From: Leptolyngbya sp. Heron Island J
Lineage (GTDB): Bacteria > Cyanobacteriota > Cyanobacteriia > Phormidesmidales > Phormidesmidaceae
Assembly: GCF_000482245.1 (NCBI RefSeq)
Contig: NZ_AWNH01000008.1
Span: forward strand, 1 to 64,000
Direction of reading: 5' to 3'
DNA length: 64,000 nucleotides
Part shown: positions 1,519 through 17,289 of the stretch, in pieces
Layout of the letters: each line of letters opens with the position of its first letter
Numbering within the stretch: the first letter of the stretch is position 1
The notes under the pieces: generated by a model
Seen by the model: the letters and a program-made list of their open reading frames with translations, nothing else
Told to the model about the DNA's origin: nothing
Database searches by the model: none
Position numbers and translations under genes: made by a program

Positions 1519-1550
1519 CTGCTCTCTAGATCTATGTTGGCATTAATGTG

Positions 1551-2612
1551 ATGCTTGATTTGTCAGTGTTGTTCTTCGGCTACGGGTTTTATTTTCTTGC
1601 CTTTAGTGTTGCGTTTGTTGTTGTTGTTGTTAGTGTACCCATTGTTAGATCTTTAGCGATCCGGTGTAACCATGTAGATTTGCCCAATGATCGCAAAGTG
1701 CATCAACGCCCGATGGTGCGCTTGGGTGGCGTTTCTATTTTTCTTGGTATGCTGGCGGCAGCGATCTGTCTTTGGCAGTTAGATGGCTTTAGTCACCTGT
1801 TGCCTAATGCTCAAAAAGAGATATTGATCCTTTTATTAGGTGGTAGTGGCTATTTCTTCTTAGGCTTTTTCGATGATTTAAAGGGACTGTCACCTAAGTT
1901 TCGTTTGATCTGCCAGCTGGCGATCGCGGCCCTAGTGTGGCAAAACGGCATTCGCATTGACTTTTTCAATGTGCCAGGTATTGGCGTGGTACACCTGGGA
2001 TTGTTGAGCTTGCCGATCACGTTGTTATGGATTGCTGGGTTAGTCAATGCCATCAACTGGATTGACGGCTTGGATGGCTTAGCCTCAGGTGTCAGTGCAA
2101 TTTCTGCCCTGATTACTGTGGGTATTTGTTTATTTATTGGAGAACCCTCGGTAGCGCTGTTGGCTATGGGTTTAGTGGGTAGCCTGTGTGGGTTTTTGGT
2201 CTATAACTTTAACCCGGCCTGTATCTTTATGGGGGATGGTGGCTCTTACTTTATTGGGTTTATGTTAGCGGTGATTAGCATCGCTGGCCTGGTGAAAGGC
2301 GCAACAGCTGTCACGATTCCACTGATTGTATTAGCCGTGCCCATTTTTGACATGACGCTGGTGATTGTTTCACGATTGCTGCAGGGTAAGTCTCCTTTTG
2401 TGGCGGACAAAAGTCATTTACATCATCGGCTGCTGAAGGTTGGGTTTTCCCATCGTGGCGCTGTGTTGTTTATTTATGCCCTTAGCCTATGGATTGGCAG
2501 CTGGGCGTTTCCCCTGGCTCCGATTCCCAATGGCATTTTGGCCATGGTGATTTCTACGCCGATTCTTGGGATTGCTTCTTGGCGGGCCTGGCGGGTGGCG
2601 CAGGTTTCTTAG
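1551..2612 (+). CDS. WecA/TagO-type undecaprenyl-phosphate sugar-1-phosphate transferase (MraY family)
   Basis: This is an integral membrane enzyme of the MraY/WecA family. It moves a sugar-1-phosphate from a UDP-sugar onto undecaprenyl phosphate and so starts glycan repeat synthesis at the inner face of the plasma membrane. Family motifs seen are the Asp pair in FFDDLKGLSPKFR near residue 105, NAINWIDGLDGLASG near 165, FMGDGGSYFIGF near 226 and HLHHRLLKVGFSHRG near 290. About ten hydrophobic segments fit the family, and 353 residues is the usual length. An ATG directly follows a GTG at 1548; I use the ATG. It is first in the EPS block and follows a structured leader. It could instead be a TagO homologue used for cell-wall glycans, but the neighbours favour EPS. 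Confidence 0.88.
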   Translation: MLDLSVLFFGYGFYFLAFSVAFVVVVVSVPIVRSLAIRCNHVDLPNDRKVHQRPMVRLGGVSIFLGMLAAAICLWQLDGFSHLLPNAQKEILILLLGGSGYFFLGFFDDLKGLSPKFRLICQLAIAALVWQNGIRIDFFNVPGIGVVHLGLLSLPITLLWIAGLVNAINWIDGLDGLASGVSAISALITVGICLFIGEPSVALLAMGLVGSLCGFLVYNFNPACIFMGDGGSYFIGFMLAVISIAGLVKGATAVTIPLIVLAVPIFDMTLVIVSRLLQGKSPFVADKSHLHHRLLKVGFSHRGAVLFIYALSLWIGSWAFPLAPIPNGILAMVISTPILGIASWRAWRVAQVS

Positions 2613-2737
2613 GGATGCAACTGTTATTCACAAGCCTTCTTGGCTGAGGTCACGTCGAAGCTTGGGTAGGGTGAATTCGCCTATTAAAAGGTCTTTTATA
2701 TTCAAGCAGCTGCCCAAGTTGTTTCAGGTTGTTCAGG

Positions 2738-2839
2738 CCCCCAAACTCCCAACCTTGGGGGCTTTGATTCAGTCTCTCCTAGTATTGGGAAAAGATGATC
2801 TTCAGACGCTGTAGATCTTTACGATTACCTACTTATCTA
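2738..2839 (+). promoter_or_regulatory. Structured leader, copy 2, before the second EPS gene
   Basis: This is homologous to the leader at 1412-1518. CCCCCAA (2738-2744) pairs with TTGGGGG (2755-2761), then come GCTTTGA, a diverged CTCTCCTAGTATTGGGA, and ACCTACTTATCTA at 2827-2839. The long second stem of copy 1 is degraded here, while the first hairpin and the 13-mer are kept. This suggests those two are the conserved parts. Confidence 0.45.
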
Positions 2840-2894
2840 TTTTTTGGCAACAGTTTTGTTTCATTGCTCTATCGTTTACTAGTGCTCACGCTTT

Positions 2895-4181
2895 ATGGTA
2901 CCTGGCAACCTATACCAACCTACTAAAACAGTCTCCTATGATGATCAAACTGATGTTCGGTCGACTCAACAAACTGTTAAATTAATCACTCAGTTTTTTG
3001 CTCCTGACTATGCCGCTACTGGTCAGCTACTGGATGAGCTAGTGAAACAGCTAGCAAAGCAGGGAATCCCGGTTGAGGTATTTACTGGACAACCGGGGTA
3101 TGCCTATGGTGAGGCTGAAGCACCCCAGCGGGAAATGAGCCAGAACCTGTATGTGCGTCGTTCGCGGATGACGCGGTTATGGTCTAACCGTGTGCGGGGT
3201 AAGGCGTTGAATGGTTTGTTGTTTGTGATCCGGGCATTTTTGCATTTGTTACGCCATGGCTGGCAAAAGGATAAGGTGCTGTTGCTAACGACAGCTCCGC
3301 CGTTTTTGCCGGTGATTGGTTATTTAATTAGTCTGTTGTTTAATACGCCTTATGTGGTGATTTTGTACGATCTATATCCAGACATTGCGATAGAACTCAA
3401 TGTAGTGAAATACAACCATCCGGTTGCTAAGTTTTGGCGGTGGTTAAATCAGCGGGTGTGGCGACGGGCAAAGTCGCTGGTTGTCTTGAGTCCATCGATG
3501 AAAGCGCGGGTGGTGGGCCACTGTCCGGATATTGTGGATCGGGTGGAGGTTATCCATAGTTGGGCGGACCCAGACTTGATCAAGCCGATTGAGAAGAAGG
3601 ATAATTGGTTTGCTCGTGAGCACGGTCTGGTGGATACGTTTACGGTGCTGTATTCGGGGAATATGGGCCGCTGCCATGATATTGATACGATTTTTGAGGC
3701 GGCAAAACTATTACGGAATGAGCCAATTAAGTTTGTATGTATTGGGGGCGGGGCAAAGCGTAAGACACTGATTGAGGATGTAAAGGCGGAGGGTTTGGAG
3801 AAAAACTTTTTGTTTTTGCCTTATCAGGATAAGAAGGATATTCCATATTCGATGACGGCTTGTGATGTGTCGTTGGTTAGTGTGAGTAAGGGGATGGAGA
3901 GTTTAGTGGCTCCGAGTAAGTTGTATCCGGCCTTATCATCACAACGGCCCATAGCTATCATTGGACCTCAAGGAAATTATATAGAGGAGTTAGTGAATGT
4001 AACTGCTTGTGGAAAAGCCTTTTCAAATGGGGATATTAGAGGGTTGGCGAAATTTCTCAAGACGCTACATAATGATGCAAATTTAGCAAAGACTATGGGG
4101 GCAAGGGGACGAGAGCACCTGATCCAAAACTACACACCCTATTTAGTTGCTCGTAACTATGTGGACATTATGCATCAGTAA
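2895..4181 (+). CDS. GT4 family glycosyltransferase, WcaI-like
   Basis: This is a cytosolic GT-B glycosyltransferase that probably adds a sugar to the lipid-linked EPS repeat unit. The N-terminal half starts with a basic/polar stretch of about 30 residues, then LITQFFAPDYAATGQLLDEL, which resembles the opening of colanic-acid WcaI proteins. The C-terminal half has the nucleotide-sugar domain with VLYSGNMGRCHDIDTIFEAA near residue 252 and PSKLYPALSSQRPIAIIGP near 340. At 428 residues it has family length. The ATG at 2895 gives a long N-terminus, so a later start is possible. It lies 282 bp after the WecA-like gene and has its own copy of the structured leader. Confidence 0.85.
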   Translation: MVPGNLYQPTKTVSYDDQTDVRSTQQTVKLITQFFAPDYAATGQLLDELVKQLAKQGIPVEVFTGQPGYAYGEAEAPQREMSQNLYVRRSRMTRLWSNRVRGKALNGLLFVIRAFLHLLRHGWQKDKVLLLTTAPPFLPVIGYLISLLFNTPYVVILYDLYPDIAIELNVVKYNHPVAKFWRWLNQRVWRRAKSLVVLSPSMKARVVGHCPDIVDRVEVIHSWADPDLIKPIEKKDNWFAREHGLVDTFTVLYSGNMGRCHDIDTIFEAAKLLRNEPIKFVCIGGGAKRKTLIEDVKAEGLEKNFLFLPYQDKKDIPYSMTACDVSLVSVSKGMESLVAPSKLYPALSSQRPIAIIGPQGNYIEELVNVTACGKAFSNGDIRGLAKFLKTLHNDANLAKTMGARGREHLIQNYTPYLVARNYVDIMHQ

Positions 4182-4193
4182 AGCGAGTTTAGG

Positions 4194-4227
4194 ACATTAA
4201 AAGCATTATAGTTAATGCTTTTAATGT
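4194..4227 (+). terminator. Perfect 15-bp inverted repeat after the WcaI-like gene
   Basis: The arms at 4194-4208 and 4213-4227 are exact complements around a 4-base loop. The position, 13 bp after a stop codon, suits a terminator or an mRNA 3'-end stabiliser. The stem is AT-rich and no long T-run follows, so termination efficiency is uncertain. Confidence 0.55.
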
Positions 4228-4369
4228 ATAAGAATAGGCTATTGGTATAACCGATAGGGAAAAGCTGTGAATCAGTTATTCGATAGTTTGTCTACTAATA
4301 TACTTAGAGGTTAACTAGGGTATTTTCGCAAGTCAGAATGAGTCAATAATTTAGCTGTACGTAGATAAA

Positions 4370-6166
4370 ATGTCTGCAAAAAATAATAACCATAATTTGC
4401 TCTTTGAGCTCAAACAACTCTTGGAGTATGTTAATCAAAAGAGAAAAAGACAGTTGCTTTTTCTTCTACTCATTATGATTTTTTCATCTCTGAGTGAAGT
4501 TGTCAGCCTAGGTTCTGTGCTTCCTTTCTTAGGAGCTTTGGGAAATGCTGATAAGCTACTTGAGAATAAATACTTGCTCCCATGGTTTGAAATATTTAGT
4601 ATTCAAACTCCAAGTCAATTAATTTCGGTACTCGCTGCTGTCTTCATCTTTGCAGTCATAACAGCTAATGCTCTGCGAATTTTAACAATAAATATTCAAA
4701 CTCATTTGGCAGCTAGCATATCTAGTGATCTGAGTTGTCAGCTCTATAAGAAGACTATCTTACAACCATATAGCTTTCATGTATCACATAACAGCAGTCA
4801 ACTTGTGAATGTGGTAACGGTAGATAGTCGTGCACTAACTACTGTTTTAGTAGCTTTATTGAGCATTGTTACTAACAGTTTCGTCATTGTCGCTCTTATC
4901 ATCGGATTATGTTTGATTGATGCGCGGATTGCTCTGGCTGCTGCTGTCTTGCTGGGGGGAGCTTACATTACCATTTATCGTGTACGCCGTAAACTTTTGG
5001 CGTATAACAGTCAAACACTTGTCCAGTGTAGTCAACAACAAATAAAGACTGTACAAGAAAGTTTGGGTGGCATTCGAGATGTTTTGCTTGGAGACATACA
5101 TAGCCATTATCAATCTACTTATCAGCAAGCGGATACAAAATTTCGCCATGCTGCAGCTTCAAATAAAGTGATAGGGTTGACTCCACGGTATGTCATAGAG
5201 TGTATAGCTATGACTGCAATTGGTCTCTTCGCTTTACTACTGAGTAGAGATGGGGACTTCAGTAGCACTTTACCTGTATTAGGCAGCTTAGCCCTTGGAG
5301 CCAATCGGTTGTTGCCAGCGTTACAGCATTCCTTTTCGGCGTTGGCCTCAATTCAGGGTTCACGCGAATCTCTTCGAAGAGTAATACAAGGCTTAGAGCG
5401 AAGTGTTGAAACATTTTCTAGAAAGGATTCTTTTTTTAATTTAGAATTTGAAGAAGGTATCCATCTAAAGAATATCTGGTTTCGTTATGGTACTGAAAAA
5501 GAAGACTGGATTTTACGTGACCTCAATCTATATATACCTGCAAGGAGCACAGTTGGCTTTATTGGGAGTACAGGCAGTGGGAAAAGTACAACTATTGATT
5601 TAATTCTTGGTCTACTTCAACCACAAAAAGGTTCAATTCTAATTGACGATAAACCTTTAACAGATAAAAACTTACGTCAGTGGCAAAAAAATGTTGCTCA
5701 CGTACCGCAGAGTATTTTCCTGAGTGATGCAACAATTGCAGAAAATATTGCATTTGGCATTCGAAAAGATTCTATTGACTTTGAGCGCGTTCACATGGCT
5801 GCTCAATTAGCAAAGATAGATGAATTTATACGGGAGCTTCCAGCTAAGTATGAGACATATGTGGGTGAAAGAGGAGTACGTCTTTCGGGCGGACAAAGGC
5901 AACGCATTGGTATTGCAAGAGCATTATATCAACAGGCTTCTGTCATAGTTTTTGATGAAGCAACTAGTGCTTTAGATAATGAGATGGAAAAAGAAGTTAT
6001 GGAGGCAATTAACGGGTTGAGTCATAAGTATACGGTGATTATGATTGCCCATAGATTGACTACAGTTTCAGCATGTGACTGTGTATTTTCCTTAGAGAAA
6101 GGAAGAATTGTAGCGCAAGGTAAACTTCAGAATTTGTTAGACGAAGCCTCTGTTTCTAAAACATAA
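4370..6166 (+). CDS. ABC transporter, fused permease and ATPase (MsbA/PglK-like flippase)
   Basis: This 598-residue half-transporter has an N-terminal six-helix membrane domain (about 20-320) and a C-terminal ATPase (about 360-590). In the ATPase I see Walker A GSTGSGKST near 400, the signature LSGGQRQRIGIARAL near 505, Walker B VIVFDEATSALD near 527 and the switch histidine in MIAHRLTT near 560. All catalytic residues are present, so a homodimer should be active. In an EPS block, such exporters flip lipid-linked oligosaccharides or export glycolipid; PglK is the best-known model. From here to 17.3 kb the DNA is more AT-rich than the flanks. Substrate is inferred from context. Confidence 0.87.
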   Translation: MSAKNNNHNLLFELKQLLEYVNQKRKRQLLFLLLIMIFSSLSEVVSLGSVLPFLGALGNADKLLENKYLLPWFEIFSIQTPSQLISVLAAVFIFAVITANALRILTINIQTHLAASISSDLSCQLYKKTILQPYSFHVSHNSSQLVNVVTVDSRALTTVLVALLSIVTNSFVIVALIIGLCLIDARIALAAAVLLGGAYITIYRVRRKLLAYNSQTLVQCSQQQIKTVQESLGGIRDVLLGDIHSHYQSTYQQADTKFRHAAASNKVIGLTPRYVIECIAMTAIGLFALLLSRDGDFSSTLPVLGSLALGANRLLPALQHSFSALASIQGSRESLRRVIQGLERSVETFSRKDSFFNLEFEEGIHLKNIWFRYGTEKEDWILRDLNLYIPARSTVGFIGSTGSGKSTTIDLILGLLQPQKGSILIDDKPLTDKNLRQWQKNVAHVPQSIFLSDATIAENIAFGIRKDSIDFERVHMAAQLAKIDEFIRELPAKYETYVGERGVRLSGGQRQRIGIARALYQQASVIVFDEATSALDNEMEKEVMEAINGLSHKYTVIMIAHRLTTVSACDCVFSLEKGRIVAQGKLQNLLDEASVSKT

Positions 6167-6308
6167 ACATTTAAACTTCTAAATAGATGAAGAGCTTAAT
6201 ACTCACATTTAAGAGATATAGAGAACCTGACTAGGATTTTTCAATCATTTATAAAAGTTTTTATAAACTGTAAAGCTCTAAACTAGGTAATCAGCTAATG
6301 AGTGGATC

Positions 6309-6863
6309 ATGCAATCAACTCTTAGGAACTCTATGACGCAATTTGAGAAATACACTTTTTCTGGTCTATTCTCCGATATCAGGTCTGATCTCCAAAGAAA
6401 TTCTAAATCTTTTCATGAGTCATTATTTCGATTGCTTTTTAATCCCTCAATAAGAGTCTTACTTTACTATCGATTATCTCACTGGTTATATAAGAAAAAA
6501 TTTCATAAATCGTCTTACATTATTAATTCTTGGCAAAATAAGTATGGCTGCTATATCTCTCGAAAATCTGAGCTTGGGAAACATGTCCGTCTCGTTCATC
6601 CTATTGGCATAGTAATTGGAGATGGCGTTGTTATTGAAGATGATGTAGCTATATGGCAAAATTGCACTTTGGGCAGTCATGGAAAAGATAATACTTCTCA
6701 ATCTTATCCATATGTAGAAAGTGGTGTTCGAATATATGCAGGAGCTGTAGTTGTGGGTGGTGTCAGGATTGGTAAGAATTCTGTGATTGGAGCCAACAGT
6801 GTAGTTTTAAGTGACGTACCTGAAAACTCTCTAGCTGTAGGAGTTCCTTACAAAAGAAAGTGA
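6309..6863 (+). CDS. Left-handed beta-helix O-acetyltransferase (CysE/WcaB-like)
   Basis: The C-terminal half shows hexapeptide repeats (HPIGIVIGDGVVIEDDVAIWQ, then VRIYAGAVVVGGVRIGKNSVIGANSVVLSDVP), which form the acetyl-CoA-binding beta-helix. The histidine in LGSHGK near residue 118 sits where serine acetyltransferases have a catalytic histidine. At 184 residues it lacks the long N-terminal helical domain of true CysE. An O-acetyl decoration of the EPS is therefore more likely than cysteine synthesis. A second ATG eight codons in is an alternative start. It lies between the ABC exporter and murB on the same strand. Confidence 0.8.
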   Translation: MQSTLRNSMTQFEKYTFSGLFSDIRSDLQRNSKSFHESLFRLLFNPSIRVLLYYRLSHWLYKKKFHKSSYIINSWQNKYGCYISRKSELGKHVRLVHPIGIVIGDGVVIEDDVAIWQNCTLGSHGKDNTSQSYPYVESGVRIYAGAVVVGGVRIGKNSVIGANSVVLSDVPENSLAVGVPYKRK

Positions 6864-6912
6864 AAATCTGAGAGGCTAGAAAGCTGTTCCAAAAATATTT
6901 AACTCGTGAGCA

Positions 6913-7797
6913 ATGCGTATTCCATCTTTTGTTAAAGAAAATGTTTTGCTGGCTCCGCACACATCGTGGAATGTTGGTGGGCCAGCTAGATGGTTAGCAG
7001 AACCTACTATAAATGAAGTTAGAGAATTAGTTCTTTGGGCATCGAACTATAGTATTCCAACTTACTTTATGGGTAGAGGTTCTAATGTTTTAGTTAATGA
7101 TAGCGGTTTGAATGGCTTAGTTATTTTGACCTCTAAATCAATGACAGAATTACGTCGTGAAGGAGACATTGTTGTTGCAGATAGTGGAGTGTCACTGCCT
7201 AAATTATCTCAGTTTGCCGCACGTGAAGGTTTTAAGGGCTTTGAATTTCTTATCGGAATACCTGGCACGGTTGGTGGGGCAATAGTTATGAATGCAGGTT
7301 TAACAGTCTTTAAACCAAGAGAAATGACATCTATTGTCAAAGATTTTGATGTCCTGAATCCAGATGGAAATATCGAGACTTTAACTATGGCGGATGTTAA
7401 AGCAGGATATCGTTATACAGACTTACTAAATCGTCAATCTCTAGTTTTACGCGCGCGTTTTCGCTTAGAAGAAGAAGAGGAACCCAGTAAAATACGGCGA
7501 GTAACATTGGAGCATCTTAATGAGCGTAAACGTAAACAACCTTTAAAACTTCCAACAGCTGGGAGTACATTTAAGTCACCACCCGGCAACAAAAGTGCTG
7601 GTTGGTATATTGAGCAAGCTAAGCTTAAAGGAACTCAAATCGGAGATGTAAGAGTTAGTTTGTTACATGCTAATTGGATTGAGAACTTGGGCAAGGGTTC
7701 TTCGGAGGATGTTTGTAAGCTGATTGATTATATTCAAAAGACTGTTGAATCCCGTATGGGAGTCGAGTTAGAACCCGAGATCTGTTATCTGGATTAG
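6913..7797 (+). CDS. murB: MurB-like UDP-N-acetylenolpyruvoylglucosamine reductase
   Basis: This is an FAD-dependent reductase that turns UDP-GlcNAc-enolpyruvate into UDP-MurNAc with NADPH. I see the FAD-binding motifs WNVGGPARWLAEP, GRGSNVLVNDSGLNGL and GIPGTVGGAIVMNAG. The GYRYTD arginine, the serine in AGSTFKSP near residue 218 and the C-terminal glutamate in ELEPEICYLD are all present, so it should be active. At 294 residues it fits the short (type II) MurB class. It lies 30 bp before a murA homologue and inside an EPS block rather than beside murC, its usual cyanobacterial partner. This suggests a second, dedicated copy, but I cannot see the rest of the genome. Confidence 0.88.
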   Translation: MRIPSFVKENVLLAPHTSWNVGGPARWLAEPTINEVRELVLWASNYSIPTYFMGRGSNVLVNDSGLNGLVILTSKSMTELRREGDIVVADSGVSLPKLSQFAAREGFKGFEFLIGIPGTVGGAIVMNAGLTVFKPREMTSIVKDFDVLNPDGNIETLTMADVKAGYRYTDLLNRQSLVLRARFRLEEEEEPSKIRRVTLEHLNERKRKQPLKLPTAGSTFKSPPGNKSAGWYIEQAKLKGTQIGDVRVSLLHANWIENLGKGSSEDVCKLIDYIQKTVESRMGVELEPEICYLD

Positions 7798-7827
7798 TAA
7801 ATCTATCAGGAAATTATTGAAAACGTT

Positions 7828-9084
7828 ATGGAAAAACTTACTGTTTATCCTTCATCTCTGAACGGCCAGGTAAGAATTAGTGGAGCTAAAAACTCTGCTC
7901 TAAGGCTTTTGGCTGCATCTTTGTTAACTTCTGGCACTATCCGCCTACAAAATTACCCAAGTACTTTACTTGATGCTGTACTACATGTGAGGATGTTGGA
8001 GGCTCTCGGTAAAAAATGCCGTCTTCTTGACAAGAATACTATTGACATAAGTGAAGAGCAAGTACCTTCTTCTGAATTAGTATGGTCTGAGCGCTCAATT
8101 CGCAATACTTTGCTAATTCTTGGAGCGTTAGTTGCTAGAACAGGCAAGGGAAAAGTTCCTTTACCTGGAGGGTGTAAACTTGGTAATCGGAAATATGACC
8201 TACACATAATGCTTTTGAAAGCTCTTGGTGCTGATGTATGGGAGGAACAAGGATATATCTGCGCTGAAGCAAAAGTAAGTCAACAGCTGATAGGTACAGA
8301 TATTTATCTACCGCTCCGTTCTACAGGAGCAACAGAAAATAGTATCATTGCAGCCTGCTTGGCAAAAGGTGTGACTCGCGTATGGGGGCCTCATATACGT
8401 CCAGAGATTTTAGACCTCGTTAATTTTCTAAATTCTATTGGTGCAAAGATAACAGTTTATGGTCAAGAAAGTATTGTTGTTGAGGGTGTCACTGAACTTG
8501 GCCAAACTACACATAGGGTCATTCCTGATAACGTCGAAGCGCTTACTTGGTTAATTGGTGCAGCTATTACAGATGGGGATATTGAGATAGCAGATTTTCC
8601 TTTTGAGCACTTAGAAATTCCACTTATCCATCTTCGTGAAAGTGGTGTTCGTTTTTACAGAATGGAAAATCATCTAATTGTTCGAGGTTCAACCTGCTAT
8701 CCAATTGATATCAGTACTGGTCCATACCCAGGGATTAATTCTGATATGCAACCACTCTTTGCTGTTCTAGGTGCAGTTGCGAAAGGAGAAAGTCGAATTG
8801 TAGATTTAAGATTTCCCGGTCGTTATGCTTATGCAGAAGAGCTATCGAAAATGGGAATGAAATATAAAGTAAGTAATAACCTGCTTATGATTGATGGAGG
8901 TCATCTTCTTAAAGGAGGAGAAACTGTTCAAGCTCTTGATTTAAGGGCTGGTGCAGCTTTACTCATAGGGGGCTGTGTGTCTAAGGAATGTATAACGATT
9001 GAGAACGCGTGGCAAATTTCTAGAGGCTATGATCGGCTACAAGAAAAATTATCTCAGTTAGGAGTAAAGTTCTCAGCGGTCTGA
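7828..9084 (+). CDS. murA: MurA-like UDP-GlcNAc 1-carboxyvinyltransferase
   Basis: The enzyme transfers enolpyruvate from PEP to UDP-GlcNAc, the step before MurB. It has the two-domain EPSP-synthase fold length (418 residues). The Lys21-Asn22 pair (AKNSALR), the catalytic loop cysteine Cys116 in PGGCKLGNR, the loop arginine, Asp306 in INSDMQPLF and the C-terminal DLRAGAALLIGG are all present. Because the cysteine is kept, it is predicted to be fosfomycin-sensitive. The KNSALR start differs from the common KNAALP, which indicates divergence. With the preceding murB it would supply UDP-MurNAc, plausibly for the EPS repeat unit. Replacement of the housekeeping copies cannot be excluded. Confidence 0.88.
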   Translation: MEKLTVYPSSLNGQVRISGAKNSALRLLAASLLTSGTIRLQNYPSTLLDAVLHVRMLEALGKKCRLLDKNTIDISEEQVPSSELVWSERSIRNTLLILGALVARTGKGKVPLPGGCKLGNRKYDLHIMLLKALGADVWEEQGYICAEAKVSQQLIGTDIYLPLRSTGATENSIIAACLAKGVTRVWGPHIRPEILDLVNFLNSIGAKITVYGQESIVVEGVTELGQTTHRVIPDNVEALTWLIGAAITDGDIEIADFPFEHLEIPLIHLRESGVRFYRMENHLIVRGSTCYPIDISTGPYPGINSDMQPLFAVLGAVAKGESRIVDLRFPGRYAYAEELSKMGMKYKVSNNLLMIDGGHLLKGGETVQALDLRAGAALLIGGCVSKECITIENAWQISRGYDRLQEKLSQLGVKFSAV

Positions 9085-9282
9085 ATTTTAATCTTTAGAG
9101 ATCAAATTACTAGCAAAGCTTTGAGCTTACTAATCTTTACGTAAAGGTTAAAATCTTAACTCATAAAAAGGCTCGTTGAAAATAAATTTTAAGGCATCCT
9201 GACATAGCTCTTAGCTTGTATGAGGTGATTTTAAGTATAAGAATAATTGTAGTTGGTATCTAATTCAAATATTACCTGTCAT

Positions 9283-10512
9283 ATGAAAATTGTTCAACTT
9301 ATTGGAAATTTTAGAAGTAATACCGGAAAGGGAGGGCATTACTATTCATGCTTATCTATCGCTGAAGAGCTGTCGAAAAATCACAAAGTGAGAATAGTCT
9401 CTGTAGGCAAAGAACAACCATCTATTTATAAAGGAAATCAGCTATGCTTTCATCAATTTGGTGAGGTAGAGAATCTAGATTCAATTGTTGAAAAACTACA
9501 TTCACAGCTGCAAGAAATAGTTCCTGATATTTTGCATGCATATGATCCAAAGTCAGGCTACATAGCTAGCCATTTAAATCATAAATATGGCTATCCTTAC
9601 ATAGTTACCAAACCAGGTGGAGCATGCCTACCTCCTTCAGTTCCTCTGTATCCGGCAATGATAGCTTTTCATCGTGAAGATCTAGACGATTTCTCAAAGC
9701 GTTTAGATTATCCAAAGAAAGTTTGGATGTTGCCTCATAGAGCTAAGCCTTTAACTAGAAGGTTGTTAAATAGGGAAAGTGTTTTTCAGAATGTAGCCAA
9801 AAACTGTTTACGAGTCTTGAGGATTGGTTCAATAACAGCAAGATATGAAGGCGCTCTGCTACAAGCTATAAATATTACCCAGCTTTTGAATAGTAGAGGG
9901 CTTTCTAGTAGTCTTGCTATCGTCGGATATGTGGAGTCTGAGGCTGTACTGAATCGTTTAAGGAATGTAGCTGGACAAGAAACTAGTTTTTACATATCCG
10001 AGGATGCGACTATCTCTGCATCAGATTATATTCTTGATGCAGATGTAGTTGTAGGAACTGGGAGATCAGTTGTCGACGGCTTATCTGCACGAAAAATTAT
10101 TTTAGTTCCAGTTAAAGGATCCAAGTATCCTGCATTACTCAATGAAGCAAAATTTAGTCACTTTTTTGACAAAAATTTTTCTCTAAGAGCAGAGAAGAGT
10201 AGCTTTATTTCTCCAGATAAACAGACTGAAGAGATTATCACCACTTTGAGTCAAACAGCTAAAAAGGAAATCTTAGAAGAGTGGTGTTGGAAAATATTTA
10301 CAGAGAATTTTGATGTCAAAGAAGGAGTGATCAAACTTTTAGATATCTATCATGAAATAAGTTTAAACAAAAATATAGTTGGTGTAGAGCAGCTTGAAAA
10401 GCTTGATCGTTTTTACAGGAGAAGGAATTTTGAGGAAAAATATGTTGTAGGAATTAAGAAGAAGATCAAGCATATTCTGTCGTATTCAAGACTTGATTCT
10501 TTATTTCTCTAA
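9283..10512 (+). CDS. GT-B-like glycosyltransferase, divergent
   Basis: I recognise the general GT-B pattern but no specific family. The N-terminus KIVQLIGNFRSNTGKGGHYY has the glycine-rich loop seen in GT4 enzymes. The segment VVVGTGRSVVDGLSARKIILVPV near residue 270 resembles the C-terminal nucleotide-sugar domain, with an altered EX7E region. A TTG-initiated extension begins at 9253, but the ATG at 9283 starts exactly at the first beta strand, so I choose it. The product has 409 residues. It probably acts on the EPS repeat unit, given that it sits between murA and the polymerase. Confidence 0.65.
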   Translation: MKIVQLIGNFRSNTGKGGHYYSCLSIAEELSKNHKVRIVSVGKEQPSIYKGNQLCFHQFGEVENLDSIVEKLHSQLQEIVPDILHAYDPKSGYIASHLNHKYGYPYIVTKPGGACLPPSVPLYPAMIAFHREDLDDFSKRLDYPKKVWMLPHRAKPLTRRLLNRESVFQNVAKNCLRVLRIGSITARYEGALLQAINITQLLNSRGLSSSLAIVGYVESEAVLNRLRNVAGQETSFYISEDATISASDYILDADVVVGTGRSVVDGLSARKIILVPVKGSKYPALLNEAKFSHFFDKNFSLRAEKSSFISPDKQTEEIITTLSQTAKKEILEEWCWKIFTENFDVKEGVIKLLDIYHEISLNKNIVGVEQLEKLDRFYRRRNFEEKYVVGIKKKIKHILSYSRLDSLFL

Positions 10513-10588
10513 AGTTTCTTTAGTTTTTTATGACTGGCATGATGAGAAGCAATGACATTTAAAGGATTTTATTCCTGGGGTGTTTTAT

Positions 10589-11923
10589 ATGATTGATACG
10601 ATTGCAGGCCTAGTAATTGTTTTAAACTCGACCTATTTTTTCATTTTTGCATCTCCTTTAATAGGTATACCAGTTGCCTTGGCAACTCAAGCATTGCTTG
10701 CTGCTAATTTCCTTTATATTTATCTACAAAAAAAACAATTACTGATACTCTTGCGTAAGAAAATTGTTATTGGCTGGGTTATTACTCTAGGTGTATGGCC
10801 TTTGCTAACAAGCTTATACTCTGCGTCTGCTAGTCCAAGAAATATAGGGCTAGCCCTATATTTCTGCTCACTATTTTTACTTGCGCTAATATACACTACC
10901 GTGAATGGCTGGAGAAAGTTTCATGCTCTTATTCTTTGGAGTGTTGTATTGTCAGCAATAGGACTTATTCTAAGCTTGATCTTTCCGGAAACATTTACTG
11001 CAGCAGGATTAGCTTCTGGAGCACGTTCATACTATAGAGGACGAGCCTTCGGTTTCTTCATGCAGCCTAATAGAGCTGCTGCTAATATAGCTTTTTTATG
11101 TATTATTTGGCTTTCAGGTAGTCAATTTAGTAATATTTTTAAGGTTTTTACTAAAGTTTTACTCTGGATGTTGTTGATTTTAGTGACAGCATCTAGAGGA
11201 GGGTTGGTAACATCAATTGCAGCTATTCTTTTGATATTTCTAGATTTTTCTTTATATAAGTGGAATGGTAAAAAATATCTGTATGTTATAGGAAAAACCA
11301 AGAAAAAAATATCTGAATGGCAACGAAAATCATTTCTAAATTTTAAGAAAAACATTTTCATTTATTTATTATTTCTAGCATGCTCTGTTCTTGTCTTTCA
11401 GCACTTATCTCCCAATCTATTTGGTGACATCGAAATCAGAGAGTTCGAGAGCGTTATATCTAGAACAACAGACTTTTTTGCGCTTGATTCGTTGGACGAA
11501 GTTCAGTCAATTGATTCAGCGCAGGTTAGATTAAGAGCTCAGAAACAATTTATCCACAGAATTTATGAGCACCCTCTTATTGGTCGAGGATTGGGTTCAA
11601 GTGTCCATGATGTTGAGAAGGGGGTACTGTTTCTTAGTAGCCACAATGCTTATCTGTCTGCTTTATATGACTATGGTGTACTTTATCTGATTGTATACAT
11701 ATACACGTGTATATATCTGTATAGAACCAGTCAAAAATCAAAGTTACAGTACTACTTAGGCAACAGAATAATCTTGCAGTTTTTATTGTGTGCGGCTGTC
11801 ACATCATTTTTTAACAATCAAGTTCATGATTCTAGAGCTTATTTTGCGATTTTAGGAGGACTAACCTCCTTAGCCTTAAACCCTGAGATATTGTATGTCA
11901 AATCAAATCAACGACACGGATAA
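10589..11923 (+). CDS. Wzy-like O-antigen/EPS polymerase
   Basis: This is a multi-pass membrane protein of 444 residues. It has roughly ten or more hydrophobic segments and a large extracytoplasmic loop (about 265-360). Within it are RGRAFGFFMQPNRAAANIAF and HPLIGRGLGSSVHD, followed by SSHNAYLSALYDYG. The order Arg-rich loop, G-x-G, then H-N-x-x-L is the Wzy_C/O-antigen ligase signature. It would join repeat units at the periplasmic face. A GTG at 10580 is possible, but GGGG at 10577-10580 is well placed as a ribosome-binding site for the ATG at 10589. Its 3' end overlaps the next gene by 29 bp, suggesting translational coupling. Confidence 0.82.
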   Translation: MIDTIAGLVIVLNSTYFFIFASPLIGIPVALATQALLAANFLYIYLQKKQLLILLRKKIVIGWVITLGVWPLLTSLYSASASPRNIGLALYFCSLFLLALIYTTVNGWRKFHALILWSVVLSAIGLILSLIFPETFTAAGLASGARSYYRGRAFGFFMQPNRAAANIAFLCIIWLSGSQFSNIFKVFTKVLLWMLLILVTASRGGLVTSIAAILLIFLDFSLYKWNGKKYLYVIGKTKKKISEWQRKSFLNFKKNIFIYLLFLACSVLVFQHLSPNLFGDIEIREFESVISRTTDFFALDSLDEVQSIDSAQVRLRAQKQFIHRIYEHPLIGRGLGSSVHDVEKGVLFLSSHNAYLSALYDYGVLYLIVYIYTCIYLYRTSQKSKLQYYLGNRIILQFLLCAAVTSFFNNQVHDSRAYFAILGGLTSLALNPEILYVKSNQRHG

Positions 11924-12953
11924 TTCTATCAGTCAATTGAGTATGCAAGTGCAGAAGATAATTGGTTTCCCAAGACAACCTGGAGACATTGGTGGACCTA
12001 GTAGTTTTCAGAGTCGTTTAGAACGTAAGCTAATTGAAACTGGTTGTAAGGTTACATACCCTAAAGATAATATCCACCCTGATGTCATTTTAGTAGTTAA
12101 TTCGACTTCAAAAATCTTATGGGTTTTACTCTCAAAACTACGTGGTTCTAGAATTGTACATAGACTAGATGGACTGTTCTGGAGATCTGAAGCTCTGGAT
12201 AATGTCTCGCTGTCGATAAAGTTGAAGCATAAGGTTTTAGACTTATTTAAGTTCTTTATTCGTAACTTTTTGGCTGACGAAGTTGTCTATCAAAGTGAAT
12301 TTATCAAAGATTGGTGGCATAAGAAGTACGGAAAAGCATCTTGTAGAGAAAACATTATTTATAATGGTGCTGACTTAGAGGAATTCTATCCTAGAGAAAA
12401 AGATACGACTTCGCTACCTCGAATTTTATGTGTTGAAGGGTATGTACAAGATGACATAGTTACCTTAAAAACTCTCACAGAAGCATCAACGAAGCTGGCT
12501 AGTTCAAAACTGATAGAAGAAACCTGGGTTTGTGGTGAGATTTCTCAAGATAGTCAAAAGTACATAAGTAGGTTTAGTGAGATTTCAATTAGAGGTAAAG
12601 TTCCTAGAGACGAAATGTCTAAATGCTTTTCCATATATGGAATTTATCTTGTTCTTGAAATTAATCCACCTTGCCCAAATTCGGTAATTGAAGCACTTGC
12701 ATCAGGTATGCCTGTAGTTGGCTTCGATACTGGGGCGCTTAGAGAGTTAGTACCACCAAATGCTGGAGTTCTAGTTCCATATGACGGGAATCCGTGGAAA
12801 CTGGAGGAACCAAATTTTGAGCTTATTTCAGAAGCCATAGCTCAAGTTTTGACTGACTGGCATGCTTTTAGTAAAGGTGCCAGAGAGACTGCCGAACAAA
12901 AATTTTCATTAGATACGATGTTTTTGAAATACCGAAAACTTTTGGGAGTTTAA
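11895..12953 (+). CDS. GT4-like glycosyltransferase
   Basis: This is a 352-residue GT-B enzyme. It has a short N-terminal domain (FPRQPGDIGGPSSFQSRLER near residue 25, IVHRLDGLFW near 90) and a typical C-terminal domain. In the latter, LEINPPCPNSVIEALASGMPVVGFDTGALRE near 255-285 contains the EX7E-type motif of GT4 retaining enzymes. It overlaps the polymerase gene by 29 bp. A second in-frame ATG at 11943 is a possible start just before the first beta strand. It probably adds a sugar to the EPS repeat unit; donor and acceptor are unknown. Confidence 0.8.
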   Translation: MSNQINDTDNSISQLSMQVQKIIGFPRQPGDIGGPSSFQSRLERKLIETGCKVTYPKDNIHPDVILVVNSTSKILWVLLSKLRGSRIVHRLDGLFWRSEALDNVSLSIKLKHKVLDLFKFFIRNFLADEVVYQSEFIKDWWHKKYGKASCRENIIYNGADLEEFYPREKDTTSLPRILCVEGYVQDDIVTLKTLTEASTKLASSKLIEETWVCGEISQDSQKYISRFSEISIRGKVPRDEMSKCFSIYGIYLVLEINPPCPNSVIEALASGMPVVGFDTGALRELVPPNAGVLVPYDGNPWKLEEPNFELISEAIAQVLTDWHAFSKGARETAEQKFSLDTMFLKYRKLLGV

Positions 12954-12977
12954 TGTAATTATTGATGGAATCAACAA

Positions 12978-13874
12978 ATGGCTTTACCTGATTTTGTGGT
13001 GATTGGCGCTCAAAAGTCTGCCTCAACTTTCATACAGTTTTGTTTGGCAGATCATCCTCAAATATTTATGCCTTACGGCGAAACATCCTTCTTTGAATCA
13101 ATAGATTATCCAAGCAAATATCAAGAGTCACTGGAAGTGATTTTTCAAAATAGGAAAGAAAAGATATTAGGTATCAAGAGGCCTGATTATTTAACAAATC
13201 CAAAAGTACCTCGAAGAATTAACAGTTTAATACCTAATGCTAAATTGATAGCTATTTTACGAAATCCGGTAGATCGCTTCGTATCTGCATACTATCATTA
13301 TATGCGGTATGGATTTATTCCAATTGAAGAACCAGAAATTGGAATTAAAAAAATACTTGACAATCAATATCAGTGTTCGTACAAGAGAGCTCAAGAAATC
13401 ATTGACTATGGCTTTTACTATAAGGGCCTCCAAGGGTACTTGGATATCTTTGAAGAGAGCCATATTCTTATCATTTTACACGAAGATATTATTGCGAATA
13501 AGCATGATGTAACTAAGATTATATATAAATATCTTGATGTTCATGAGGAATATGTACCATCTTCTATTGGACACAGACCTATGTCTGTTGTATATAACCT
13601 TTCTCGGCTTAAATTCTTGAGAGCTGGTAACTCGCTTGTTTATCAATATAATGATGAAAAGACTCGCCTGTGGAAAAGAAAAAACATCCTAGCTAGCGCT
13701 ATTTCTTACACCTTAAAAAGTTTTGATTCGGTTATCTTATCAAAAGTCTTTGCGAGCGAAAAACCATCTCTATCAAAAATAATTAGGAGTGAGCTTATAG
13801 ATCTTTATAAAGATGATATCCAAGCACTGCAAAAACTAATTAATCGAGACTTAAGTAGTTGGATGAAAATATGA
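12978..13874 (+). CDS. PAPS-dependent sulfotransferase
   Basis: The protein begins with the 5'-phosphosulfate-binding loop IGAQKSASTFI (residues 8-18). It also has the 3'-phosphate-binding motif RNPVDRFVSAYYHY near residue 95-108. Both are hallmarks of the heparan-sulfate-type sulfotransferase family. The lysine in the first loop is present, so the enzyme should be active. It has no membrane segment, so it would act in the cytosol on lipid-linked or nucleotide-linked sugar. This predicts a sulfated EPS, as known for many cyanobacterial sheaths. It lies 24 bp after a glycosyltransferase in the same operon-like run. Confidence 0.85.
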   Translation: MALPDFVVIGAQKSASTFIQFCLADHPQIFMPYGETSFFESIDYPSKYQESLEVIFQNRKEKILGIKRPDYLTNPKVPRRINSLIPNAKLIAILRNPVDRFVSAYYHYMRYGFIPIEEPEIGIKKILDNQYQCSYKRAQEIIDYGFYYKGLQGYLDIFEESHILIILHEDIIANKHDVTKIIYKYLDVHEEYVPSSIGHRPMSVVYNLSRLKFLRAGNSLVYQYNDEKTRLWKRKNILASAISYTLKSFDSVILSKVFASEKPSLSKIIRSELIDLYKDDIQALQKLINRDLSSWMKI

Positions 13875-13957
13875 TCATTGACTGCTTGAAAAATTAGTGG
13901 AATTTATGACCACAAAGCTTTAGGTTTAATGCTTACTAGTGATTTTAGACTAGCCTA

Positions 13958-15082
13958 ATGAAAAGAATCGCATTACTCTTTGAAAACTATGGTCCTTACC
14001 ATATGGCCAGGTTAGCGGCTTTAGAAAAGCTCTACTCTGGCACAGACTTTGAAGTTATCCCTATGGAGATAGGCCGATTTCAAAAGAAGTATGCTTGGGA
14101 AGTTGGTACTGAAGAGATACCTCAAAACCTAGTCTCAGTTATAGAAGATGATTCTATTGAAGAATCATCTTTTCTTAAAGTTATTTCAAAGTTGTTCAGT
14201 AAGTTGAATGATATTAATCCAGATACTATTGCCATTGCAGGTTATGCTGAACTACCCATGCTTGCATCTTTGTTGTGGGCTACTTTATTTCGGAAACACA
14301 CTATACTTATGTCTGCTTCTAAAGCAGATGATAGTAAACGTATATTCATAACTGAACTCATTAAAAAAGCGATCTTAAGGTTATTTAGGACTGCGTTAGT
14401 TGGCGGTCAACCTCAAAAACGTTATCTTTTAGCTCTTGGTAAATCTGCTGAAAGTATTTTTACTGGTTACAACGTTGTAGGTAATGATAACTTTCATCCT
14501 AAGGTGCTTTCGAAGTTTTCTTCACCTATAGAGCAGCCATTTTTTCTTACGATTAACCGCTTTATTGCTAAAAAAAACTTACATACGTTAATTGATGCCT
14601 ATGCTAAATATCGACAGATTTGTAGACACTGTCCTTACGAATTAGTTTTGTCCGGCGATGGTGAACTTTATCATGCACTTGAGAAACAAGTAGAATCTCT
14701 AAACTTAAAATCTGTTGTGCATTTTACTGGATTTCTTCAACAGAAAGAACTTCTGCCATATTTAGCTCATGCTTCCTGTTTCATACATGCTAGTGCTCAA
14801 GAGCAGTGGGGCCTTGTTGTGAATGAAGCTATGGCTGCTGGACTACCTGTTATTGTTTCAAACCGTTGCGGCTGTTTCGAAGATCTTGTTATTGAAGGCG
14901 TGAATGGTTTTGGCTTTGACCCCAATAGTCAAGATCAGCTTACTGACATCATGCTGAAAGTTAGTTCTAGTGATGTAGATCTAGATGAGATGGGTGAAGC
15001 TGCTTTATCTCATATTCAACAATTCTCTCCAGCTCGTTTTGCACAAGGCTTTAATGAAGCTTTGGAATATATGAATATCTAA
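13958..15082 (+). CDS. GT4 family glycosyltransferase
   Basis: This 374-residue GT-B protein has the C-terminal GT4 sequence TINRFIAKKNLHTLIDAY near residue 205. It then has LVLSGDGEL, HFTGFLQQKELLPYLAHAS and EQWGLVVNEAMAAGLPVIVSNRCG near 287-307. The last segment contains the EX7E motif. The N-terminus RIALLFENYGPYHMARLAAL contains the acceptor-side histidine often seen in the family. It is one of several sugar transferases in the block and is followed 17 bp later by another. Confidence 0.87.
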   Translation: MKRIALLFENYGPYHMARLAALEKLYSGTDFEVIPMEIGRFQKKYAWEVGTEEIPQNLVSVIEDDSIEESSFLKVISKLFSKLNDINPDTIAIAGYAELPMLASLLWATLFRKHTILMSASKADDSKRIFITELIKKAILRLFRTALVGGQPQKRYLLALGKSAESIFTGYNVVGNDNFHPKVLSKFSSPIEQPFFLTINRFIAKKNLHTLIDAYAKYRQICRHCPYELVLSGDGELYHALEKQVESLNLKSVVHFTGFLQQKELLPYLAHASCFIHASAQEQWGLVVNEAMAAGLPVIVSNRCGCFEDLVIEGVNGFGFDPNSQDQLTDIMLKVSSSDVDLDEMGEAALSHIQQFSPARFAQGFNEALEYMNI

Positions 15083-15099
15083 TTACTACATGATTAGTT

Positions 15100-16299
15100 A
15101 TGAATGTTTTGCTAGTTGCCCCATATCTAGGTCTTACTTATGGAGGTACTTCAAAAGTTGTATTAGAGTTAGCAAAATCTATTAATTCCGTATCTTCTTC
15201 CATTAATGTTGATGTGGTATCCACCAATGCTAATGGAGATAATTTTCTTAATGTAGAGCTTGGAGTATGGATTGAGAAAGAGAACTATCGTATTCAATAT
15301 TTTCCAACTTGGTATCGTAACGATTTAATTGTCAGTCTTCCGCTTGCTAAATGGCTTCTTAAGTCAATTAAAAGGTATGACATGATTCATACTCATACTA
15401 TTTTTGCACCGATAATCTCTTTTACAACTATGGTTTGTAATTTATATAACAAACCATATATCATCACACCTCATGGCATGCTTGATCCATGGGCCTTATC
15501 CTATAAAGCTCAAAAAAAGACTATTTATTATTCAATCGCTGAGAAAAAATTGCTCCAAAATGCTGATGCAATTCATGTTTTAGCAAGATCCGAAGCAATG
15601 CAAATTAAAAAATTAGGCTATCCGCAAGGATGTTTAATACCAAACGGTATACCTAATTCATTTTTTAATCAAACTTTTGATGAAAAAATATTTTATCAAA
15701 AGTTTCCTGAATTATATTCAAAAAAACTTATTTTATTTCTTAGTCGTATTGATCCTAAAAAAGGTTTAGATATACTTGCTTCAGCATTTTCGAAAGTCAA
15801 TGCATCTTTTCCAAATACACATTTGGTCTTGGCTGGGCCAGACAGTATCAACTATAAGCTTACTGTTGAAAAATATTTTTCTGATGCTGGTTGCTTAGAG
15901 TCTGTAACTTTTACTGGTATGCTCTCCGGCTCATTAAAATATTCTGCGCTAGCTGCCGCTGATTTTTATGTTTTGCCTTCTTATTCTGAGGGTTTTAGCA
16001 TGTCTGTCTTAGAAGGGATGGCATCTGGATTACCATGCATCATTAGCGAAAATTGTAATTTTCCGGAAGCTAAGAAAGCAAATGCAGCTCATATTGTTAA
16101 GCCAGATTCAGAATCTGTAGCGCAAGGGCTATTGCAATATTTGCGTGAGCCTCAAAAAGCGCAACAAATGGGAGATTTAGCTAAGCAATTCATTTTTCAG
16201 AATTATACATGGGAAAAATCAGCTAAGAAGTTAATTCAACTATACCATTCAATTTTAGAGGACAGAGAACTGAAAAAAAAGAGGATTTTTAGCTCATAA
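15100..16299 (+). CDS. GT4 family glycosyltransferase
   Basis: This 399-residue GT-B enzyme opens with LVAPYLGLTYGGTSKVVLEL (the glycine-rich acceptor loop). It continues with THTIFAPIISF and ITPHGMLDPWAL, a sequence common in mannosyl/galactosyl-type GT4 proteins. The C-terminal part has LFLSRIDPKKGLDILASAF near residue 210 and PSYSEGFSMSVLEGMASGLPCIIS near 293-316. The latter contains the EX7E motif. It lies 17 bp after another GT4 gene and is the last glycosyltransferase of the block. Confidence 0.88.
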   Translation: MNVLLVAPYLGLTYGGTSKVVLELAKSINSVSSSINVDVVSTNANGDNFLNVELGVWIEKENYRIQYFPTWYRNDLIVSLPLAKWLLKSIKRYDMIHTHTIFAPIISFTTMVCNLYNKPYIITPHGMLDPWALSYKAQKKTIYYSIAEKKLLQNADAIHVLARSEAMQIKKLGYPQGCLIPNGIPNSFFNQTFDEKIFYQKFPELYSKKLILFLSRIDPKKGLDILASAFSKVNASFPNTHLVLAGPDSINYKLTVEKYFSDAGCLESVTFTGMLSGSLKYSALAAADFYVLPSYSEGFSMSVLEGMASGLPCIISENCNFPEAKKANAAHIVKPDSESVAQGLLQYLREPQKAQQMGDLAKQFIFQNYTWEKSAKKLIQLYHSILEDRELKKKRIFSS

Positions 16300-16410
16300 T
16301 TTGATGTCGATTAACTATTTATTATGTCGAAAATATTTTGTATAATAAATCTTTTTTCAGAAAAATAAGAATAAGTCTAGCCTCCTAAAAATTACTTGCC
16401 ATATACTATT

Positions 16411-17289
16411 ATGTCTAACTTCTTAGCTGCTAATACTTTCAAGTATATTTGGATGCATCCGAACTCTGAAAATAGGAGAGTAAAAGGGATCTTAAAGTTT
16501 TTGGGTTGGCAATTTTATAAGCGAATCTTTAAGAAGCCTGTTGATATTGAAATTATTCCAAAATTTAAAATCCGTTGCTATCCTAATGGTTATTCTGCAG
16601 CTTCTGTACTCTACTGTGGGCTCTATGATTATAATGAGATGAATTTCTTACTGCGATATTTGCGACCAGAAGATTCTTTCTTGGATATTGGGGCTAATGT
16701 TGGTATCTACTCCATTTTAGCGGCATCTAGAATTAGCCTTGGAAAGGTGTTTAGTTTTGAGCCTCTTCCAAAAAATATCGATAGACTAAAGGAAAATTGT
16801 AAGTTAAACAAATTTGATCACATTGAGATTCACTCGGTAGCTATTTCAGATATTCAAGGTGAAATAGCATTAAATTTGGCGGAAGGCGACTCTATGCCTT
16901 TTATCACTTCAAGTCCAGAAGAGAATTCGATAACTGTTCCTACTGATACGTTGGATAATATTTTTAGAGGTAGAGAATTAAAGCAACTGACCTTGGCTAA
17001 GATTGATATTGAAGGGGCTGAATTCTTGGCCTTTAAAGGTGCAAGGTCTTTGTTGGAGAAACATCTTCCATATGTTTGGATTCTAGAGATTAATAACACT
17101 ATCAAGAATTTCAACCATACAGAAGAGGACGTTGTCAGTTTATTGAATAGCTTTGGTTATCATCTTTATGATTATGATGCAGCTCATAATTGTTTGAAAC
17201 CAATTGGATTAAAGCAGCAACAAGGGAAGAATGCCCTAGCGATTGCTGATAGCCATCTTGACTTTGTTCGAGAACGTTTGGCAAAGTGA
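16411..17289 (+). CDS. FkbM family SAM-dependent methyltransferase
   Basis: This is a class I methyltransferase of the FkbM type. SAM-binding motif I is FLDIGANVGIYSILAA near residue 90, the acidic residue follows in VFSFEPLPKN, and KIDIEGAEFLAFKGA near 196 is the family's characteristic segment. Such enzymes O-methylate sugars in many EPS loci, which fits its place at the end of this block. A TTG at 16396 would add five residues, but the ATG at 16411 is the better start. It is the last gene on the plus strand before the accessory junction. Confidence 0.85.
   Translation: MSNFLAANTFKYIWMHPNSENRRVKGILKFLGWQFYKRIFKKPVDIEIIPKFKIRCYPNGYSAASVLYCGLYDYNEMNFLLRYLRPEDSFLDIGANVGIYSILAASRISLGKVFSFEPLPKNIDRLKENCKLNKFDHIEIHSVAISDIQGEIALNLAEGDSMPFITSSPEENSITVPTDTLDNIFRGRELKQLTLAKIDIEGAEFLAFKGARSLLEKHLPYVWILEINNTIKNFNHTEEDVVSLLNSFGYHLYDYDAAHNCLKPIGLKQQQGKNALAIADSHLDFVRERLAK

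Follow-up and report, generated by a model that had tools for sequence, protein, structure and literature searches.

In this work, we studied a pair of adjacent genes, which we call murB' and murA', in Leptolyngbya sp. Heron Island J, and we conclude, with a probability of roughly 0.75, that they are not peptidoglycan genes but a module dedicated to the sugar nucleotides of an exported polysaccharide, making a uridine diphosphate (UDP)-activated 3-O-[(R)-lactyl] sugar. The window analysed is a stretch of 64,000 nucleotides (contig NZ_AWNH01000008.1, positions 1 to 64,000). Within it murB' (6913..7797, + strand, 294 amino acids) encodes a paralogue of the UDP-enolpyruvyl-sugar reductase MurB, and murA' (7828..9084, + strand, 418 amino acids) a paralogue of the UDP-sugar enolpyruvyltransferase MurA with a changed acceptor side. 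Both genes are paralogous to housekeeping genes, MurA' belongs to a distinct group that spans several phyla, the linkage to polysaccharide genes recurs, and the residues of the chemistry are intact. Judging from the sequences, the pair likely makes a lactyl-ether sugar, and peptidoglycan is an unlikely purpose for it.

As the first-pass annotation had claimed, the MurB and MurA homologues are neighbours within an exopolysaccharide (EPS) block: the two frames are complete and read on the + strand, with 30 bp between them, the catalytic residues are present, and EPS genes lie on both sides. MurB' has NCBIfam and Pfam matches, and its scores exceeded the cut-offs of both curated murB equivalogs, NF010480 (291.9 vs. 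259 bits) and TIGR00179 (213.3 vs. 144.5 bits). Together with the retained R167, S218 and E289, which we take to be the catalytic residues of MurB and which are invariant across 14/14 aligned MurBs, this places it among MurB enzymes. MurA' passed the subfamily model NF006873 (382.2 vs. 297 bits) and matched PF00275, but it remained below the murA equivalog TIGR01072 (362.7 bits vs. the cut-off of 392.7). The same was true of all five MurA' proteins scored (321.5–386.1 bits for the other four) and of both scored members of a sister group, MurA'' (321–386 bits for MurA' and MurA'' together), whereas the housekeeping controls L036 and L085 reached 557.6 and 440.6 bits. The window MurA' retains K21, N22, R92, C116, R121, D306, R332, D371, R373 and R399, equivalent to K22, N23, R91, C115, R120, D305, R331, D369, R371 and R397 of E. 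coli MurA, and this set is unchanged at the E. coli-numbered positions in 16/16 MurA' rows of our alignment; the roles of these residues and of those of MurB, and their positions in E. coli, follow the accepted assignment. The AlphaFold model of MurA' (predicted local distance difference test, pLDDT, 91.4) superposed on MurA bound to UDP-N-acetylglucosamine (UDP-GlcNAc) with a template modelling (TM) score of 0.93 and a Z score of 52.6 to 1uae. Since the model is confident and superposes on the UDP-GlcNAc-bound enzyme, MurA' should work as MurA does. By subfamily model, fold and catalytic residues alike, MurA' is a MurA-type enolpyruvyltransferase.

The host genome (8.06 Mb, 119 contigs, 99.26% complete) bears separate housekeeping copies of both genes. 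The second MurB, on contig C80, is 40% identical to MurB' and directly adjoins murC, and the second MurA, on contig C78, is 38% identical to MurA' and lies among unrelated genes; both scored well above the NCBI equivalog cut-offs (murA 557.6 vs. 392.7 bits; murB 354.3 vs. 259 bits). A third, distant MurA match on contig C46 (26% identity) was taken as AroA-like, judged by its low score. Furthermore, each of the nine genomes with MurA' among the 14 searched contained another MurA (9/9).

MurA' members were found in Cyanobacteriota, Bacteroidota, Balneolota and Alphaproteobacteria. Relatives with 58–75% identity are present in Anabaenopsis and two more genomes from its order, Oscillatoria CS-180, Leptolyngbya PCC 6406, five Bacteroidota/Balneolota genomes and a Rhodospirillales metagenome-assembled genome (MAG); in Qingshengfaniella, Rhizobium and Agrobacterium they lie on plasmids. 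The plasmid matches followed were those with at least 45% identity to the window MurA, plus one of Haematobacter reached via the Phormidesmis copy. After removal of duplicates and of matches with fewer than 330 aligned residues or shorter than 360 amino acids, a tree of 67 rows was built by a quick method, in which the 16 distinct MurA' rows formed one group with a Shimodaira–Hasegawa-like approximate likelihood ratio (SH-aLRT) support of 98. The group was recovered with support of 98/95 from the 13 MurA' rows retained in a careful 37-row tree, which left out five long rows, including one of a cyanobacterial housekeeping enzyme, as well as three from Rhizobium and a further 22 of cyanobacterial housekeeping enzymes. 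Forcing the four cyanobacterial MurA' together with ten cyanobacterial housekeeping MurAs lowered the log-likelihood by 272.8 and was rejected by the approximately unbiased (AU) test (p-AU 1.4e-46), so the window copy stands apart from the housekeeping MurA of cyanobacteria. Of the two outcomes that the first-pass annotation had named as refuting it, single copies of the genes in the genome is contradicted for both genes, and a place in trees among cyanobacterial housekeeping enzymes is contradicted for MurA.

MurA' is rare. Among 59 related genomes, five of which (some of the set being incomplete) gave no MurA whatever, it occurred in three including the host (the other two being G013 and G028), that is, in 2/58 others. 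In the phylum draw it was found in 1/386 genomes, the host only (threshold 1e-88), in another draw in 3/291 (the seed G059, G616 and G723), and in a further one in 1/395 (the seed G062 itself). A fourth match in the 291-genome draw (genome G501, locus L142) has housekeeping residues and no EPS gene among the four neighbours scanned, and it served as a control. The rarity, the multi-phylum spread and the plasmid location would fit horizontal transfer.

To compare gene neighbourhoods, the MurA' loci were collapsed to 15 (the window, L038–L046, L055, Rhizobium, L058, L140 and L141), five Rhizobium plasmid records counting as one; L057, L060 and L061 were inspected for the presence of murB only, and their wider neighbourhood is outside the counts. 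The fetched flanks contained a glycosyltransferase in 15/15 loci, as judged by Pfam in 12 (the window, L038–L042, L044–L046, L055, L140 and L141), by annotation in L058, and by similarity to the scanned ones in L043 and Rhizobium. An exporter, a flippase, a Wzy protein/polymerase or a chain-length kinase was present in 12/15, and no export or polymerisation gene was seen in the fetched flanks of L040, L055 and L140. An acyltransferase adjoins the pair in six of the 15 loci (the window, L039, L043, L045, L055 and L141) and in a related Clostridia locus (L048), the order exporter-acyltransferase-murB'-murA' being common to the window, L039 and L141. The MurA' pair is thus found among polysaccharide genes in independent lineages. 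The first-pass annotation had suggested a muramic-type sugar in a secreted polysaccharide; the polysaccharide context recurring across phyla supports this well, and GlcNAc as the lactyl acceptor is not established.

Against the intact catalytic set stands a consistently changed acceptor side. All 16 MurA' rows share letters absent from 40 housekeeping rows, among them A92N, V161R, V163T, A186H and E188R, the last one replacing by R an E found in 40/40 housekeeping rows (E. coli numbering); R232N, P303N, T304S, V327R and N330G are further replacements found in 16/16 MurA' rows and in none of the 40. The signature recurs in two MurA' members added later; L142, the control, has the letters of the housekeeping enzymes. 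The arginine at position 327 was found in 21/21 MurA' and MurA'' rows and in 0/46 others; R at 161 and 188 is not general in MurA''. Class-switching positions made up 9/28 of the pocket and 46/391 of the other positions (Fisher p = 0.006), a modest enrichment that is suggestive only, the pocket being a rough one, compiled after the switched columns were known from docking tables in the available parts of PMC10816260 and PMC8587927 (the numbering of the latter taken as that of E. coli) and not from measured contacts.

These features bear on the proposal that the pair serves peptidoglycan as a second, regulated source of UDP-N-acetylmuramic acid (UDP-MurNAc), co-expressed with EPS and comparable to MurA1/MurA2 of Firmicutes. 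The intact chemistry and the paralogy to essential enzymes agree with it; however, MurA' follows polysaccharide genes in four phyla and is missing from most relatives (2/58 others, and the host alone among 386), and in 6/6 Firmicute MurA rows of the set both E188 and V163 are retained, with V, I or L as residue 327. This explanation, which the first-pass annotation had offered as an alternative, is therefore disfavoured, and we regard it as very unlikely.

In 14/15 collapsed loci a MurB homologue is encoded no more than 3 kb from MurA', the exception being L040. In a quick MurB tree with long rows kept, the partners fell into at least three groups (cyanobacteria with Balneolaceae, alphaproteobacteria, and Bacteroidota), and the cassette MurBs required four label changes on it, so that they are not a single group. 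The cyanobacterial cassette MurBs, with one from Balneolaceae, made a group of their own, yet one placed beside the cyanobacterial housekeeping MurBs, so that the separation from housekeeping enzymes is less clear for MurB than for MurA. Since the partners come from at least three groups, MurA' may be the constant part of the module, with repeated recruitment of the reductase as a possibility. That the pair is non-functional or was acquired neutrally, landing in an EPS block by chance, would agree with the patchy, rare distribution and with the broken murB remnant downstream of murA' in the Anabaenopsis locus L038. But the frames are full-length, the catalytic residues and the signature are invariant over a deep divergence, and the murB partner is nearly always there, so we consider such an origin most improbable. 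In the same Anabaenopsis locus, a transposase gene or fragment lies upstream of murB', and the remnant downstream of murA' derives from a second murB' (8325-8978, 11266-11622).

Another rival explanation is that the pair makes ordinary UDP-MurNAc and that MurNAc itself is the sugar of the exported polysaccharide. It draws on the MurB equivalog scores of MurB', on the complete catalytic set of MurA' and its predicted fold, the same as that of UDP-GlcNAc-bound MurA, on the WecA-family transferase with which the block opens, and on UDP-GlcNAc being always on hand. Yet the acceptor-side replacements, including R188 in place of the E of all 40 housekeeping rows, are invariant, MurA' falls under the murA equivalog cut-off, and the housekeeping enzymes could supply UDP-MurNAc already, so that a signature kept across four phyla needs another reason; we hold this explanation possible but doubtful. 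The assertion of the first-pass annotation that the two enzymes together make UDP-MurNAc is accordingly upheld as to the catalytic residues and questioned as to the substrate: because MurA' scores too low for the murA equivalog and is consistently changed on its UDP-sugar side, GlcNAc may not be the lactyl acceptor. As to the acceptor itself, a UDP-uronic acid, mainly UDP-glucuronic acid (UDP-GlcA) giving 3-O-lactyl-GlcA ("nosturonic acid"), comes close to an even chance; UDP-GlcNAc, giving MurNAc, has a chance somewhat below even, and some other sugar would be rather improbable. UDP-GlcNAc C6-dehydrogenase-like enzymes, scoring below the TviB cut-off, are encoded in L042, L045 and L048, and other acceptors are therefore possible.

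Three lines point to a uronic acceptor. The first is the three new arginines at or near acceptor-side positions (161, 188 and 327). The second is the presence near the pair of an epimerase-type short-chain dehydrogenase/reductase (SDR), found in L045, L047, L048, L058, L140, L141 and L150, with a UDP-glucose-dehydrogenase-like gene directly before it in L048, L058 and L150. The second-best solved relative of the SDR is 6zl6, presumably a UDP-glucuronate 4-epimerase, and its YAATKK...GRPDM stretch is what we take to be a mark of that family. The third line is by analogy: nosturonic acid occurs in EPS, and its lactyl ether has the same position and configuration as that of muramic acid. According to the accessible text of PMC6017307 and PMC5635763, nosturonic acid is 3-O-[(R)-1-carboxyethyl]-D-GlcA, a residue of Nostoc commune EPS, and the portion of PMC5983295 available describes 3-lactyl-GlcA in a Vibrio alginolyticus EPS that also contains galacturonic acid. 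We tentatively propose that the substrate of MurA' and MurB' is UDP-GlcA or a different UDP-uronic acid and that their genes serve the biosynthesis of lactyl uronic sugars of the nosturonic-acid type. The pair would then be an offshoot of the muramic pathway that has spread horizontally and has a new acceptor, with R164, R191 and R328 (positions 161, 188 and 327 in E. coli) as its marks, and MurA'' would carry out a related reaction; this more specific proposal is possible, and we would not put it higher than that.

Several observations weigh against a dedicated lactyl-sugar module, or against its uronic version. Besides the modest, roughly defined pocket enrichment, MurB' passes the MurB equivalogs, and its counterparts stem from several lineages; L040 has MurA', and the only MurB of that genome is of the housekeeping type. 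In L055, the weakest locus, only one glycosyltransferase of family 2 (GT2) and the acyltransferase speak for a polysaccharide within 15 kb, amid choline and proline genes. The best solved match of the SDR is 5u4q, deposited as a deoxythymidine diphosphate (dTDP)-glucose 4,6-dehydratase, and the SDR scored above no NCBIfam cut-off; it lies near just 4/15 MurA' loci, and EPS loci of any kind often contain such genes. Neither a UDP-glucose dehydrogenase nor an epimerase-type SDR was seen in the window, and the two UDP-glucose dehydrogenase homologues elsewhere in the host genome carry little weight, since 13/13 searched genomes had one. Moreover, the link from gene to product is a predicted one, the product of each locus being deduced from its genes alone.

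The reactions and the order of assembly, which we infer, would be as follows. MurA' would transfer enolpyruvate from phosphoenolpyruvate to a UDP-hexose at its 3-OH, and reduction of the enolpyruvyl group by MurB' would give a 3-O-[(R)-1-carboxyethyl] (D-lactyl) ether. Following the logic of lipid-linked export, a glycosyltransferase of the block would then add the lactyl sugar to a lipid-linked repeat, to be handled by the exporter and a Wzy-like protein.

The sister group MurA'' comprises proteins of Phormidesmis LEGE 11477, of the second pair of the Rhodospirillales MAG, and of three IMG/VR contigs (two distinct rows used); the MurA of the Clostridia MAG, whose locus L048 is related to the pair, falls in MurA'' on a long branch, and its placement is unsure. 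Of the arginines at 161, 188 and 327, MurA'' shares only the last one. The MurA of the Haematobacter plasmid is 53% identical to the Phormidesmis copy and has the same letters at most signature sites. On this plasmid, pOT1-6 of Haematobacter massiliensis (L150, 6773-13711), a UDP-glucose dehydrogenase, an epimerase-type SDR, glycosyltransferases, MurA'' and MurB are encoded in one cluster. The Rhodospirillales MAG (G067) has three MurA and three MurB homologues on contigs C31, C37 and C41; among them are a MurA' pair and a MurA'' pair. The three IMG/VR contigs (L052, L053 and L054; 4950-7095), putatively viral, carry a MurA''-type gene followed by a GT2 gene; in L054, genes for an actin-like protein of the partition type and for a DNA methyltransferase are close by.

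When compared to known enzymes, MurA' shares with MurA (TIGR01072) its fold (TM 0.93, Z about 52), the catalytic Cys/Lys/Asn/Asp/Arg set and about 37% identity, but it differs in lying under the cut-off, in forming a separate group, in its changed UDP-sugar side and EPS context, and in being extra to a housekeeping enzyme. MurB' resembles MurB (NF010480, TIGR00179) in passing both cut-offs and keeping the catalytic Arg, Ser and Glu, but is 40% identical to the housekeeping copy, groups with cassette MurBs and sits beside murA' instead of murC. A MurA-like enzyme acting outside peptidoglycan on another acceptor is already known: NikO is the uridine monophosphate (UMP) enolpyruvyltransferase of nikkomycin biosynthesis, as described in the part of PMC6801904 available. 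The fold of NikO is similar to that of MurA' (Z 43.2), whereas the identity is only 24–25%, the NikO acceptor is UMP, and the pathway leads to an antibiotic instead of an EPS. The nosturonic acid of Nostoc commune and Vibrio alginolyticus CNCM I-5034 polysaccharides carries its ether, in the source text available, at the position and in the configuration that a MurA/MurB product should have; it is described there as a chemical structure, and no link to genes was seen in that text. No gene-level precedent for lactyl-ether EPS sugars was present among the matches listed from the open-licence PMC literature, which is weak evidence for the novelty of the gene pair. The literature matches to "1-carboxyethyl" that were examined as a precedent turned out to concern carboxyethylidene groups (pyruvate ketals) and not lactyl ethers, and a Klebsiella paper on surface carbohydrates (PMC11048683) was listed with a single "O-lactyl" match. 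Lactyl-ether sugars being already known as EPS structures, a marked MurA'/MurB' pair would make their genetic origin directly testable, and its signature would allow lactylated polysaccharides to be predicted from sequence. MurA' would also be the second case, beside NikO, of a MurA redirected to another acceptor, and where EPS or plasmid loci are labelled "murA/murB" automatically, the function so assigned may be wrong.

In the window, the pair belongs to a run of 13 co-directional genes on the + strand (1548-17289) with intergenic gaps of at most 282 bp. The run opens with a WecA-family sugar-phosphate transferase (1548..2612; PF00953; the ECA_wecA model scoring under its cut-off), followed by a WcaI-like glycosyltransferase of family 4 (GT4; 2895..4181), identified by matches to profile hidden Markov models (HMMs), and a PglK/MsbA-like ATP-binding cassette (ABC) exporter (4370..6166; PF00005/PF00664), whose best NCBIfam model, PglK, stayed far under its cut-off (306.7 vs. 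1000) and whose substrate is probably a lipid-linked oligosaccharide. A hexapeptide (EpsC/CysE-like) acyltransferase (6309..6863; NF041874 at 139.3 bits, below the cut-off of 150) directly precedes murB'. Downstream of murA' lie a putative, weakly matching GT4-like protein (9253..10512; PF13477, E=1.1e-4, just under the cut-off), homologues of which occur near murA'/murB' in three Bacteroidota loci (L041, L042 and L043; one sequence cluster), and a membrane protein of the Wzy_C/O-antigen-ligase family (10580..11923; PF04932). Next come a GT4 glycosyltransferase (11895..12953), a sulfotransferase-domain protein (12978..13874; PF00685/PF13469), two more GT4 glycosyltransferases (13958..15082 and 15100..16299), all three GT4 enzymes recognized by HMM match, and finally an FkbM-type methyltransferase (16396..17289; PF05050). 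The polysaccharide had been called sulfated in the first-pass annotation, for which the single sulfotransferase-domain gene is the only basis. Its remark that no other peptidoglycan gene is present holds: none was found by HMM among the open reading frames (ORFs) up to about 20400, and none by eye beyond that among ORFs of at least 150 amino acids. The sole MraY-superfamily gene noticed is the WecA/Glycos_transf_4-like one at 1548, with 69 bits vs. the mraY cut-off of 192. Just past the EPS run, a small nucleotidyltransferase (NTP_transf_2) on the - strand (17842-18249) matches the PADLOC candidate family PDC-S09, and farther on XisH and XisI homologues (PF08814, PF08869) are encoded side by side on the + strand (19647-20386).

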